Shown here piece after piece: positions 10,720 to 19,339 of a stretch of DNA of 28,009 nucleotides; position 1 is the first letter of the stretch; every line of letters begins with the position of its first letter. Below the pieces are notes generated by a model that was not told the DNA's origin, made no database searches, and was given only the letters and a program-made list of their open reading frames with translations. This stretch comes from a virus. The position numbers and the translations under genes are program-made. The stretch is taken from IMG/VR virus record IMGVR_UViG_3300036977_000180, positions 1 to 28,009 of that record; one strand, written 5' to 3'.

Positions 10720-11433
10720 ATGCTGAATTTAGCCGCTTGGCAGTTGCCACTCGAAGCCCGTATCCTGTTTTTCAAAGCGACCTTCAAGAATCAGCCGGGC
10801 TATGCGTTGCGCGGCCCGCACGGCAAGCGGCGCTGGAGAAAAACGGTGATGGGCCAACGACCGGGCTTGTTTGATTTGCCTGACTTAGAAGCCGTCAAGC
10901 TGACAGGGCAGGAAATCTCTGGAAGCCAGCAACCCTGGGCGTTACGTCAAACGGTCAAAGAATGGGCGCAACGCTATCGCGGTAAGGCGTTTATCAATCA
11001 GGATACCGGACAACACTTAACGATTGGAAAGGAAGGCTATCGTCATTTGTTTGGCGGAAACAAGACGCCTAGCGAACTTCAAGCGGTTGCTGCATTGCCC
11101 GCGTTGCTGGAAAAAGCAGTGCTGGCCGATGTTCACGAAGACCGCAAAAACGAATCGCAAGTGCTAGAGATGTGGCGATTCTATGCGCCGTTAATGTTGA
11201 ACGGGCAACTTCAGCGCATGAAAATGACGGTTAAGGTTAGAAAAGACGGCGCACATCAATTTCACGAACTTGATGCGCTAGAAATAGAACATCCTGCCGT
11301 CAATGCCCGTGAGGTCGTGGCTGTTTCCAGTTCGACTCCCTACCACGGACGCCCGGCAGGACTGATGATTAGTATAGCCGATCTGTTGCGCGGCGCAATC
11401 CGCGACAGCGACCATCAGCCGTTTAAGCCATGA
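10720..11433 (+). CDS. LPD3-like polyvalent-protein domain protein
   Basis: About 237 residues from ATG 10720; a GTG at 10711 in the same frame overlaps the previous stop and is possible. Residues 15-31 (ILFFKATFKNQPGYALR) repeat the leader of the nuclease-like protein at 9235, with similar DNA. Residues about 80-180 resemble the large polyvalent-protein-associated domain 3: KAFINQDTGQHLTIGKEGYRH, LPALLEKAVL, and a beta stretch (MKMTVKVRKDGAHQFHELD). LPD domains occur in phage and plasmid proteins thought to travel with DNA into the host. It ends with an ATGA overlap with the next gene. Function is unknown; the domain call is by pattern. Confidence 0.65.
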   Translation: MLNLAAWQLPLEARILFFKATFKNQPGYALRGPHGKRRWRKTVMGQRPGLFDLPDLEAVKLTGQEISGSQQPWALRQTVKEWAQRYRGKAFINQDTGQHLTIGKEGYRHLFGGNKTPSELQAVAALPALLEKAVLADVHEDRKNESQVLEMWRFYAPLMLNGQLQRMKMTVKVRKDGAHQFHELDALEIEHPAVNAREVVAVSSSTPYHGRPAGLMISIADLLRGAIRDSDHQPFKP

Positions 11434-12299
11434 GTAGCTACAGCATCGGGATCACCATCGCGCTGCCGCCGGATATTCCCTTCGGCCCGGACACCTTCCA
11501 GACTCTGGCCGGCGCAGTGGCCCAAATGGCGCAAGACGCAAAAGCCCGCTGGCTGGCCTATGCCCAGGGCGAACCGCTACCCAACGGCCAAGTGATTGGC
11601 GTCCGCAGTGGCACCTACCATCGCAGCATTCAACTGGAACAGATCGGCCCGTTTCACTATCGGGTTTTTTCCAATCTGGCCTATGCCGAGGCGATAGAGA
11701 CCGGTAGCCCGGAACGCGACATGAAGAAGATGCTGGACAGCAGTTTGAAAGTCCGGCGCACCAAGGACGGCAAGCGGTACCTGATTATCCCCTTTCGCTG
11801 GGGTACGCCCGACACAGTGACTTTCGGCAACAACACTATGCCGAAAGCCGTGCATGATTTTTTCAAGCCGCAAGGCGTCGCCCGCAGCCGGATTATCAGC
11901 CTCGGTCGGCGTGAATCAGGTACCGGTGCCTACGACATCAAAACCCGCCAGCCGGTACTTGTCCCGCGTCGCCAATATGAATGGGGTACGCGCCTGACGC
12001 AACAGCACCTCGGCGCAATGGGGATTGGCACTCAATTTAAGGGAAAGAACTACAAAACTCACCCGATGGCCGGTATGACCAACTTCCGCAAGCCCGACGC
12101 CCGTGGCGGTAAAGCACACTCGAAGTACCTAACCTTCCGGGTGATGACCGAGGATTCCACCGGCTGGAAAGCGCCTGCCATTCCCGGCAAGTACCCGGCC
12201 AAGACGGTCGCGGAGATGTTCAAGCCGATTGCAGAACAAGCCTTCAAAAAGGCGCTGGAAGAAGATGTGCGCAATTATTTAGGTCAGGTCAGAACTTGA
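11430..12299 (+). CDS. HK97 gp10-like neck/tail-completion protein
   Basis: 289 residues. The N-terminal half matches the gp10-like neck family: MAQDAKARWLAYAQG, VRSGTYHRSIQLEQ, and YRVFSNLAYAEAIETGSPERDMKKML. The C-terminal half has a longer insertion ending in a helical tail (KPIAEQAFKKALEEDVRNYL). These proteins complete the head-tail junction and help join the tail. It is the last plus-strand gene before the methyltransferase cassette, which converges on its end with a 12-base gap. Confidence 0.75.
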   Translation: MSSYSIGITIALPPDIPFGPDTFQTLAGAVAQMAQDAKARWLAYAQGEPLPNGQVIGVRSGTYHRSIQLEQIGPFHYRVFSNLAYAEAIETGSPERDMKKMLDSSLKVRRTKDGKRYLIIPFRWGTPDTVTFGNNTMPKAVHDFFKPQGVARSRIISLGRRESGTGAYDIKTRQPVLVPRRQYEWGTRLTQQHLGAMGIGTQFKGKNYKTHPMAGMTNFRKPDARGGKAHSKYLTFRVMTEDSTGWKAPAIPGKYPAKTVAEMFKPIAEQAFKKALEEDVRNYLGQVRT

Positions 12300-12311: not shown

Positions 12312-12506
12312 CTATTTATGTAAAAAAAGGCTATTTGATGGAACCCAATCGCAGGCAATTAAATCAGCCTTGAGTAGCCATCGTGAGATTCTTTCTTCGG
12401 GCGGTACGGATTCTCCCCAATATTCAACAAATAAAGCGTCGTCCATTTCTAATGCGGCTTTTTTCATCTCATTTTCAACAAGTTTCAATGATCGCTCAAA
12501 GTACAC
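12312..12506 (-). CDS. Small hypothetical ORF coupled to the methyltransferase
   Basis: The frame continues to 12722, but that part lies inside the methyltransferase gene. A GTG at 12506 overlaps the methyltransferase stop, giving about 64 residues (SLKLVENEMKKAALEMDD, then ERISRWLLKADLIACDW). ATG 12467 is an alternative, giving 51 residues. Ribosome sites are weak. It may be a small partner gene, or a remnant of a lost restriction endonuclease; neither is shown by motif. Base composition matches the AT-rich cassette. Confidence 0.4.
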   Translation of the reverse strand: MYFERSLKLVENEMKKAALEMDDALFVEYWGESVPPEERISRWLLKADLIACDWVPSNSLFLHK

Positions 12507-13464
12507 GCTCGACAGCTTTAGCAATATGCCATGCCAAAACGGGCGGTACAGCATTACCAACTTGTCGTTCTGTTTCCCGAAGTTTTGAATCAAAAATAAA
12601 ATTATCTGGGAACGACTGAATCCTTGCAGCTTCCCGCATTGAAATACGTCTAGGGAGAGAATAATGAAACTGGATATTCCCATGACACTCAGAACGAATA
12701 GTGTACCCCGGCCTTTCAGCAATCAATTTTCTGTTCCCTTGCTCTGCGCTTTTATTTGCAAGGCTCCAAATGTGGTTAAAATCTTCTTTCATATCGAAAC
12801 CTTCCAAATCGCCAATAGCCTCTTTGGCTGAAATATGATGCTTGCAAACAGGCTCAGGATGAACGAACGCAGGAACGTCCGGTCTGGTTCCAACAATAAA
12901 AACCCGTTCTCGGGTCTGTGGCACGCCATAGTCTGCTGCATGATAAAGGCGATAACTAACTTCGTATCCCAATGCCCTGAAATCTGACAACACCTGCGTT
13001 AAAGATTTTTCGTTATGCCTCATAAGCAAACCCTTAACGTTTTCAGCAACAAAAACCTTCGGGCAAATAATGGATATTGCCTTTACCATTGCTCGATACA
13101 AACCGCTGCGCTTTCCGTCAATACCCGCGCCTTTGCCATTAACGGAAATATCCTGACAAGGGAAACCACCAATCACAACGTCCGTATCTTCTGGTGCATT
13201 AATAAAATTTTTCCAAATATCGCCCTCTATAATATGAGTTCCGATATTTTTTCTGTACGTTCTACACGCGGCGCTGTTAATTTCGTTTGCCCAAATAATA
13301 TCGAAACATGTCTCTTCGTAACGCTTGCCAAGAAACTCAAAGCCACCGATAAACCCCAAGTCCAAGCCGCCACATCCTGAAAATAACGATACAACGGGTA
13401 TCTTTTTTATCCCCGATGTTGGTAGCACGTCCAGACTTCCCCCGTAATACAGCCCATTTTCCAT
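12496..13464 (-). CDS. C5-cytosine DNA methyltransferase
   Basis: 322 residues with all key motifs in order: I SLFSGCGGLDLGF (26-38), IV GGFPCQDIS with catalytic Cys 103, VI ENVKGLL (141-147), VIII QTRERVFIVG (183-192), IX RISMREAARIQSFPD (273-287) and X QVGNAVPP (301-308). It transfers a methyl group from SAM to cytosine C5. The target-recognition region between VIII and IX is short (about 75 residues), so the recognised site cannot be read from the sequence. No restriction enzyme is adjacent, so it is an orphan, probably protecting phage DNA from host restriction. The gene is visibly AT-richer than the flanking phage genes and is on the opposite strand, which points to recent acquisition. 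Confidence 0.95.
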   Translation of the reverse strand: MENGLYYGGSLDVLPTSGIKKIPVVSLFSGCGGLDLGFIGGFEFLGKRYEETCFDIIWANEINSAACRTYRKNIGTHIIEGDIWKNFINAPEDTDVVIGGFPCQDISVNGKGAGIDGKRSGLYRAMVKAISIICPKVFVAENVKGLLMRHNEKSLTQVLSDFRALGYEVSYRLYHAADYGVPQTRERVFIVGTRPDVPAFVHPEPVCKHHISAKEAIGDLEGFDMKEDFNHIWSLANKSAEQGNRKLIAERPGYTIRSECHGNIQFHYSLPRRISMREAARIQSFPDNFIFDSKLRETERQVGNAVPPVLAWHIAKAVERVL

Positions 13465-16399: not shown

Positions 16400-16933
16400 A
16401 TGCCTTCAATTTATTCGTCTTCACCGGTCACCAAGACGCAAAACGCCATTGTCCGCAGCAGTAACCGATTCACGATCAAGATCGGCGGCGTGGTTGTTGG
16501 GCTTTTGCAAGATTTACGCTGTCAAGATGATTATTCGCCAGAACCGGCCTCTGGTATAGGTGATATCCACGTCAAGGAATATGTGCCGACGATGGCCCGG
16601 CATACGATTAGCACCAGCCAAGCCTGTATGTTTACCGCCAGCCTGCGAAATCTAGGCATTAGCTTTGAAAACGGCGACGATGCTCTCAAAGGAATGGTGT
16701 TTGATATCGAAGTCAATGATCGCATCACTCAGTTGTCGGTGAGTGAAGGAATCTCAACAGAAGTCCTTATGGGCGCTGAGGGATCATCCGGTACCGTGTT
16801 GCGCCGCTACGAAAAATGCTCGTTTGCCAGCGGCGACATTGAAATCCGCAAGCACGCCATGATTGTCACCAGCGCCACCATCAACGCCTGCAACGCAATC
16901 ACGCCGGCTGGTTTGCAGAAGTCGCACATCTAA
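16400..16933 (+). CDS. Tail tube protein
   Basis: 177 residues from ATG 16400. Beta-rich throughout (FTIKIGGVVVGLLQDLR, DIHVKEYVPTMARHTISTSQ, GMVFDIEVNDRITQL, YEKCSFASGDIEIRKHAMIVTSATINA), of the size expected for a contractile-tail tube protein. It immediately follows the sheath. The tube forms the inner channel for DNA. The last bases of its stop overlap the stop of the convergent homing endonuclease gene. Confidence 0.8.
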   Translation: MPSIYSSSPVTKTQNAIVRSSNRFTIKIGGVVVGLLQDLRCQDDYSPEPASGIGDIHVKEYVPTMARHTISTSQACMFTASLRNLGISFENGDDALKGMVFDIEVNDRITQLSVSEGISTEVLMGAEGSSGTVLRRYEKCSFASGDIEIRKHAMIVTSATINACNAITPAGLQKSHI

Positions 16934-18855
16934 GGTTCCCACTTCCAACGAATTTTCCCCGCGTCCATAATCCTCAGGACGCGGGCGAATTTCTGTATCT
17001 CCCGCTCAGTGCGCGAATCCGTAGCCGGATCGAACGGCTCATCAATACCAAGCTCCGCCAATCGCGTCGGAATGTATTTTCTCTGCCATGCCGACTTATG
17101 CCAAATCCGCCCTGACGCTTCATGCAGCACCCGGTAATCAGCCGCCAGCCGCCCATCCTCTTTAAAACCTAGTGCCGGATAGACCCCGCCCGAAAAATGC
17201 TGCCGGTCTGAAAACGACCAGACTGTTTGTGGTATGTGGTTTTTAACAAACGTCGAAAAGATTTTGCCCGCACCACCACGCACAATCCGGTCAGTAGCGA
17301 ATCGCGCTAATTCCCATTCAGCGTTACCCATCATCCCCCGCCGACTAACTCCTTGGCTGAATGACATACAGGCCACCAGATCGTCTCCAGAAAACAGTCC
17401 ATAATTTACAATGGATCGCCAAGCCGCGCCTTGAATATGAGTTCTATTATAAAACTCAGTTGCAACGGACGCTTCAACCCATCGCACAGCACACGCCCGT
17501 GCGTTAATTTTTGACGCGGAATTCAATCCAAAAGCATGAAGCAAAAACCGCTTTACAAAGTCTGCGCGGGCTTTCCAATCAAAATCCCATACCGTAATCA
17601 AGCGAATACCGGCATCTCTGGCCTTTGATGTCTTGACCTCATGGATTCTGGGGTGCGGCAATTTTCCATCTGAGTGCCAATATGCCCCGTTGTACTCTAT
17701 CCCGATCTTGAGATCAGGCAGAAAGATATCGATCTCCATACTGCCTAATGCAGCGCGGTCGTTTCTGGAAACTCGCAGCCCTAGCGACGCAATCCATTGT
17801 GCTAATTCACTTTCTCCCTTGCTTGTAGTTTGCTCCCTGGCACACGTCGGGCATCCAGACCCATTGGCGTGATTATAGGGAGTTTGCCAAAATGCCCCAT
17901 GCTCGACACAAGTTATTGCTACGTTTTCCTTGTATTTTGAAAAAAACATTTGATCGTATTGATAGCGGTCGCCATGCGCCGCTCGCGCCCGTTCAATAAA
18001 TATTTCCCTGGTGACCGGTGCTTTCCCGGCACAGACCGGACACCCCGCACCTAAGCCATGCTCAATCGGACGCTGCAAAAATACGCCATGATCCTGACAG
18101 ATTATCTCAACCGGCGTCGATCCATTAACGATTCTAGCGCGGGAATAATCGTAACGATCCCCATGTACCGATTGACCCCTGGCGATGAGTTTAGCCTCGG
18201 TGATTCGCCCTACCCCGGAACAGTCCGGGCATCCTGCCCCGGCCGCATGGGATTTGGCGACTTGCCAAAAAGCCCCGTGGTCTTTGCAGACAATCTCTAC
18301 CGCATCGCTGTACCTGGAAAACATCGCCTTTGAGTAGTCATAGCGGTCGCCATGCGCCGCTCGCGCCCGTTTAATGAATTCTTCAAGCGTGACTGGCGCA
18401 AGCCCGGTGCAAGCCCGCGCCTTGGCGATAAATTCCGCCAGAGATCGCCGATGCGCCGTCGCGCATTTTTCAACCCCGCATAATTTGCAGCCATGACCTT
18501 GGGTATGGTCATAGGCAATTTGCTGAAATAGGCCATGATCTGGGCAACCGATACTGACCAGCGAATCCACCCCGGCATAATTCAGCGCCGAATAGTCATA
18601 GCGGTCGCCATGTACCGCCCGCGCCCGGACAATAAAATCCTCAGCCGTCGTGCGCTTGCACCCTGCACAAGCCGGACAGCCGGATTTGTTTTGAATATGG
18701 TTGATCGGCTTCGGGAAAAACGATCCATGTTCAGCACAAACCACCTCAACCTTAGTGCTGTTGTTTTTGTAAACGACCCGCGAATAATCATAACGGTCAC
18801 CATGTACCGCCCGCGCCCGGACAATAAATTCCTCAAGCGTGACTTTTCTGCCCAT
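16930..18855 (-). CDS. Vsr-type homing endonuclease with five DUF723-like zinc repeats
   Basis: About 641 residues from ATG 18855; a GTG at 18861 is in frame and gives 643 (numbering below counts from the GTG). Residues 7-342 are five repeats of about 60 residues with HGDRYDYS, a CxxHG/CxDHG motif and a GCPxC end, as in DUF723-type putative zinc DNA-binding modules; a truncated sixth lies at 139-155. Residues about 347-445 are a Vsr/EDxHD-like nuclease: KGESELAQWI, SMEIDIFLPDLKIGIEYNG, AYWH and AGIRLITVWDFDW. The C-terminus (475-643) is the accessory domain often paired with such nucleases (WELARFATD, GGAGKIFSTFVKN, FSDRQHFSGGVYPALGF). It would cut a phage site lacking the gene and so spread. 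It lies between tube and chaperone genes on the opposite strand, converging with a one-to-two-base stop overlap. Confidence 0.85.
   Translation of the reverse strand: MGRKVTLEEFIVRARAVHGDRYDYSRVVYKNNSTKVEVVCAEHGSFFPKPINHIQNKSGCPACAGCKRTTAEDFIVRARAVHGDRYDYSALNYAGVDSLVSIGCPDHGLFQQIAYDHTQGHGCKLCGVEKCATAHRRSLAEFIAKARACTGLAPVTLEEFIKRARAAHGDRYDYSKAMFSRYSDAVEIVCKDHGAFWQVAKSHAAGAGCPDCSGVGRITEAKLIARGQSVHGDRYDYSRARIVNGSTPVEIICQDHGVFLQRPIEHGLGAGCPVCAGKAPVTREIFIERARAAHGDRYQYDQMFFSKYKENVAITCVEHGAFWQTPYNHANGSGCPTCAREQTTSKGESELAQWIASLGLRVSRNDRAALGSMEIDIFLPDLKIGIEYNGAYWHSDGKLPHPRIHEVKTSKARDAGIRLITVWDFDWKARADFVKRFLLHAFGLNSASKINARACAVRWVEASVATEFYNRTHIQGAAWRSIVNYGLFSGDDLVACMSFSQGVSRRGMMGNAEWELARFATDRIVRGGAGKIFSTFVKNHIPQTVWSFSDRQHFSGGVYPALGFKEDGRLAADYRVLHEASGRIWHKSAWQRKYIPTRLAELGIDEPFDPATDSRTEREIQKFARVLRIMDAGKIRWKWEP
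17836..18843 (-). repeat. Degenerate tandem repeats encoding zinc modules
   Basis: Five units of about 190 bases, plus one truncated unit, encode the repeated module of the endonuclease. Stretches such as CATAGCGGTCGCCATG recur nearly identically (plus-strand reading), while other parts have drifted. The truncated unit and the different spacings (about 64, 85, 63 and 63 residues) indicate past expansion and contraction by unequal recombination. Confidence 0.8.
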
Positions 18856-18865
18856 TTTCACCCAC

Positions 18866-18946: not shown

Positions 18947-19339
18947 ATGACCCCAGCGACCTATGTGGTCAACGTCCCGGATGTCGGGGCGTTTGAGATT
19001 CGCAAGCGCACCCTCCGTGTCCAGATGGCGATTCACGCTGAACTGAATCGCCTGACGGAAGGCGCACCTCTGGCTACCTTATCCGACTGGTTTATCGACC
19101 TGTGCGGGCTAGTGGCGGAATTAAAAGGGCTGATCATTCACGCCCCGGACGGCTGGTCAATGGAGGACGTTGACCCCCTGGATGACGGGTACGACCGGCT
19201 GCGCGCCGTTTATCGGGCAATCCGCACCCAGGAGGACTCCTTTCGTATTAAAGCTAAAGGAGATCAAACAACGGGCGCGGGAGGCAGCGAACAGCATCCA
19301 GTGGTGGTTCCGGGATCGGTATCGGCTGCCACCGAATGA
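18947..19339 (+). CDS. Tail assembly chaperone, short (unshifted) form
   Basis: 130 residues from ATG 18947, behind AAGGA. The first 99 residues look like a natural alpha-helical chaperone (FEIRKRTLRVQMAIHAELNRL, FIDLCGLVAELKGLI, GYDRLRAVYRAIRTQEDSF). After that the frame becomes Gly/Thr/Val-rich and stops at 19337-19339, while the +1 frame takes over with natural sequence. This is the gpG-like member of a G/G-T pair found between tube and tape measure genes in most long-tailed phages. It binds the tape measure during tail assembly. Confidence 0.75.
   Translation: MTPATYVVNVPDVGAFEIRKRTLRVQMAIHAELNRLTEGAPLATLSDWFIDLCGLVAELKGLIIHAPDGWSMEDVDPLDDGYDRLRAVYRAIRTQEDSFRIKAKGDQTTGAGGSEQHPVVVPGSVSAATE

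Follow-up and report, generated by a model that had tools for sequence, protein, structure and literature searches.

Why a gene should lie reversed within the tail cassette of a myovirus, and what its product does there, is the question raised by a 28,009-nt stretch of viral DNA, here called the window (IMG/VR record IMGVR_UViG_3300036977_000180). The cassette consists of the sheath gene, the tube gene, the reversed gene, chaperone-like genes and the tape measure gene. The reversed gene (16930..18855, minus strand) matches phrog_559 (2.9e-115). Its longest frame, 16930-18861 (-), begins with GTG; the in-frame ATG at 18855 gives a protein of 641 aa, and all residue numbers are counted from this ATG. 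Very probably, it is a free-standing Hef-like homing endonuclease gene that was inserted in reverse at the end of the tail-tube gene and works by the homing mechanism proposed below. For a phage, such a gene is nothing unusual; it belongs to an already known Hef-like kind.

In 11 relatives, the distance from the stop of the tube gene to the start of the next tail gene is 13-93 bp. In the window, the tail-tube gene (16400..16933, plus strand) and the next one, a tail-assembly-chaperone-like gene (18947..19339, plus strand), are 2,013 bp apart, which corresponds to the endonuclease gene plus 91 bp. These 91 bp ahead of the chaperone gene represent a native-sized spacer. No homologue of the protein's core, its nuclease and C-terminal domains, was found in the whole genomes of Dolphis, PHB04, Touem01, ST4 and Mecenats66. 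The wide gap compared with the 11 relatives, together with the five core-free genomes, shows that the gene is a real insertion, in line with the original prediction of a homing-type endonuclease gene placed tightly among tail genes. Equally accurate was its claim of overlapping stops: the TAG of the endonuclease gene, on the minus strand, occupies 16930-16932 and the TAA of the tail tube 16931-16933, an overlap of 2 nt. Stand-alone genes that adjoin conserved genes and are missing in relatives are typical of Hef-like enzymes, and this is the arrangement found here. The tube protein extends about six residues beyond the end it has in the relatives, and the extra residues are perhaps read from inserted sequence. 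A search of viral contigs for close relatives of the tube protein returned none, and for the window, which is a fragment, no close relative with or without the endonuclease gene was found.

In relatives, the gap between tube and chaperone genes carries a terminator-like hairpin with a T run. A strong hairpin without a T run is also present at 16950-16993 (CCCGCGTCC/GGACGCGGG), within the 3'-terminal part of the endonuclease gene, just past the tail-tube stop. As a family-wide terminator, such a 3'-end hairpin is not general (mean z -0.2 to -0.3).

From the N- to the C-terminus, the protein consists of five zinc modules and one truncated unit, a Vsr/EDxHD nuclease, and a Mom-like GNAT domain. 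Pfam matches above the cut-off are DUF723 (6.9e-8) and DUF4379 (7.7e-6). The closest homologues are only ~38-42% identical to the 641-aa protein, so this copy is not certain to be active; bacterial genomes held no close relative of the whole protein.

The nuclease domain (17521..17829, minus strand) had been described as Vsr-like, which is loosely right. The Pfam Vsr match (5.6e-4) lies under its cut-off, and among solved nucleases the EDxHD homing endonuclease I-Bth0305I is closest in sequence (3r3p; E 5e-7, profile against PDB). It appeared only with the profile; a phmmer search of the PDB with the single protein gave no match. In a structure model of the C-terminal 313 residues, built from 78 sequences (pLDDT 92.5), the domain matches 3r3p with Z 12.9 over 94 residues. 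The two nucleases thus have the fold in common at ~20% identity. As 3r3p is restricted to a catalytic domain, the comparison covers the nuclease part of the protein alone. The conserved nuclease residues are E348, E374, D376, E387, W393-H394, H405 and K408, with E374, D376 and H394 among the candidates for the catalytic E, D, H, D residues of EDxHD enzymes. With its matches to Vsr and I-Bth0305I, the domain is not a nuclease of the T5orf172 type.

The N-terminal array agrees with the original prediction of five DUF723-like modules and a truncated sixth, as judged by a module profile and the Pfam DUF723 match. All units are on the minus strand: module 1 at 18658..18849 (~residues 3-65), module 2 at 18469..18660 (67-127), and the complete modules 3 at 18211..18405 (153-214), 4 at 18022..18213 (217-277) and 5 at 17830..18024 (279-340). 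Each of the five contains a conserved CxxH and CxxC. Among 113 modules of 33 genes, both CxxC cysteines are invariant, while many positions between conserved ones are free to vary. The truncated unit (18403..18447, ~residues 137-151, RSLAEFIAKARACTG) lies between modules 2 and 3. Of a module it retains the first helix (helix 4-14 in the model) and then jumps to an apparent module end and linker; it looks like an in-frame deletion within a single module. An intact sixth module, from which the unit's origin could be identified, was sought, but no homologue was near enough. Foldseek found no match of the module model among solved structures at E 0.001 or better, and DNA binding by the modules therefore rests on published inference. 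Tandem zinc modules of the DUF723 type, a feature of the DUF723/T5orf172 endonucleases, are present here, and the same modules are also joined to GIY-YIG nucleases on plasmids.

The original prediction overlooked the C-terminal third of the protein (16933..17508, minus strand; ~residues 450-641), which is a Mom-like GNAT domain. Its top Foldseek match is phage Mu Mom (8bv8; E 1.4e-8, Z 13.9 over 163 residues); other GNAT enzymes score a similar Z. In a profile comparison with Mu Mom, R518, D550 and Y559 align to Mom R111, D149 and Y159. Mom mutated at the equivalent residues loses activity. In the family, R, D and Y are kept in 78/78, 75/78 and 78/78 proteins. The position of Mom S124 is occupied by Ser in 58/78 members and by Gly in 11/78, including the window protein (Gly530), which therefore lacks the serine of Mom-type enzymes; the S124A mutant of Mom is labelled inactive in the title of its PDB entry. 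Phage Mu Mom and the jumbo-phage Mom-REase fusions (Iyer 2021, PMC7824862) have in common with the window protein the GNAT fold, the conserved R/D/Y and the nuclease fusion, but the latter differs by its DNA-binding array, its insertion-like behaviour and the Gly replacing S124. The Mom-like domain belongs to the conserved core and may serve in adenine modification for self-protection or in DNA binding alone.

A profile of the core matches the Hef-like enzymes F-LimVII (4e-69) and F-LimVIII (2e-61) of phage LIMEstone1. These have N-termini of another kind, whereas the window protein has the DUF723-type zinc array. The LIMEstone1 genome gives four matches, two of them tied to genes by coordinates, and four Hef-like enzymes have been reported for this phage. 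F-LimVIII is encoded between the tail tube and sheath genes, on the strand opposite to them; both it and the window gene thus adjoin the tail tube in opposite orientation. Phage Acj9 has one match, annotated as Hef-like, between nrdA and nrdB; this is the kind of locus reviewed for hef of U5, whose product is described as a homing endonuclease with nrdB as its cleavage target (PMC2988022). Like the window gene, U5 Hef, the Acj9 enzyme, F-LimVII and F-LimVIII are stand-alone genes beside essential genes, and the homologous nuclease and C-terminal domain are common to the window gene and the Acj9 and LIMEstone1 enzymes, the two phages for which this was compared. PA5oct has five matches, one of them in a gene that carries a Hef-like annotation and comes after the tail sheath. 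For the same phage, five "momylating enzymes" have been described, and Mom-REase fusions have been read as restriction-modification (Iyer 2021, PMC7824862); from the equal counts, we infer that the two sets are the same. Hef-like homing endonucleases and the jumbo-phage Mom restriction-modification fusions thus seem to be one family with two literatures. Among the papers found that mention both homing endonucleases and Mom, none describes this fusion as a homing enzyme, judged by titles and abstracts. Merging both descriptions raises the question of whether a homing nuclease is also a DNA-modifying enzyme.

Among 121 fetched open frames with a nuclease or Mom-like domain, both domains occur in 109, the Mom-like domain alone in one, and the nuclease alone in 11. 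One gene (L003:5989-7374) has five zinc modules and the nuclease and is devoid of the Mom-like domain, so array and nuclease can exist without it. Another phage contig (L119:1778-8452) carries three nuclease-Mom members within 7 kb, in which no zinc modules were found.

The original prediction also held that the array changes its length by recombination. Module turnover is indeed real, but the truncated unit is deletion-like and in frame and does not prove gain or loss unit by unit. Within the window gene, an identical tract of 32 nt links modules 3 and 5, a length reached in 0/2,000 simulations with synonymous resampling, and one of 29 nt links modules 1 and 2 (P 0.001 by the same procedure; ten module pairs were tested). 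In a set of 33 non-redundant genes, arrays of three modules are commonest (21 genes), followed by four (seven genes) and five (four genes). At one and the same locus of two near-identical Salmonella phages, Vi II-E1 has three modules and SB28 four. Their first two modules are ~97% identical and the nuclease half 98%; the remaining modules differ, the third being unlike, with breaks at conserved module ends. The array of ST44 is of the Vi type, and in Bas79 the site is empty. These three arrays and the identical tracts within the window gene show that modules do exchange sequence. Mapped on a quick tree of the core, presence and absence of the zinc array needs 11 changes, at least seven of them forced by well-supported branches; the core is thus stable while its recognition arrays are swapped. 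The central idea of the original prediction is not new in kind, as zinc arrays of the DUF723, CapR and similar types have already been described in homing endonucleases with a T5orf172 nuclease, along with a repeat-to-repeat deletion in ICP1 gp174 that keeps the frame, and strong effects on specificity were predicted (Barth 2023, PMC10448857). Those enzymes share the tandem zinc modules and a repeat number altered by recombination between repeats; they differ in having a GIY-YIG nuclease, in contrast to the EDxHD nuclease and Mom-like domain of the window protein.

Under a strict modular code, the strong form of the original prediction, every zinc module gained or lost would shift the target sequence predictably. 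The many variable module positions, the exchange of modules between genes and the effects predicted by Barth 2023 speak for such a code, but Vi II-E1 and SB28 differ in the number and identity of their modules at an unchanged site with flanks ~97-100% identical. We consider the strict code unlikely. The repeats can change while the gene keeps its location, as in Vi II-E1, SB28 and ST44. Module exchange may retarget the enzyme, but in Vi II-E1 and SB28 the site is unchanged. The pair is a natural experiment on zinc-array evolution at a single site.

For the window gene, homing would be directed at a related phage free of the gene: the zinc array would keep the protein bound to an extended DNA site within that phage's tube/chaperone region. 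The EDxHD nuclease would break the DNA of this rival there, and repair from the resident genome would copy the gene and flanking tail DNA into it. The array evolves through exchange and conversion between modules, as the relatives and the identical tracts show. Binding, cutting and repair are steps suggested by the family and by the empty sites. Instead, the gene could be a decayed, inactive remnant kept by chance, as the truncated module and the Gly at the S124 position would allow; with 641 codons uninterrupted by a stop and the conserved nuclease and GNAT residues intact, this is improbable. According to the reading of Iyer 2021 for jumbo phages, the protein would be a restriction-modification fusion whose Mom-like domain modifies the phage's own adenines and whose nuclease is directed at host or rival DNA that lacks the modification. 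The constant core with its conserved R, D and Y, the nearly invariable fusion of the Mom-like domain to a nuclease, and the agreement of the five PA5oct enzymes with five core matches fit this scheme. However, the members are sporadic insertions by essential genes with empty sites in relatives, arrays differ at one site, the window protein has Gly in place of S124, and the nuclease with the same modules occurs without the Mom domain, all of which makes restriction-modification highly unlikely here. Homing by a Hef-type enzyme is thus the preferred reading. A possible, albeit doubtful, extension of it is that Hef-type enzymes are two-enzyme selfish elements, in which a Mom-type acyltransferase marks adenines near the target so that converted and resident genomes resist cutting by the nuclease. 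If true, homing and restriction-modification would be one system with swappable recognition arrays.

Elsewhere in the window, a DNA methyltransferase gene (12496-13464, minus strand; phrog_116, 4e-79) lies reversed between head-tail connector genes and has no homologue at the equivalent place in Dolphis. The gene at 11430-12299 (+) is homologous to Dolphis_14 (36% over 284 aa); the annotated relatives' gene at that place is on the opposite strand, and the gene seems to have been inverted or moved here. Inside the head gene cassette, a transcription-regulator gene, perhaps antirepressor-like, is located at 1092-1955 (+; phrog_129, 7e-26).
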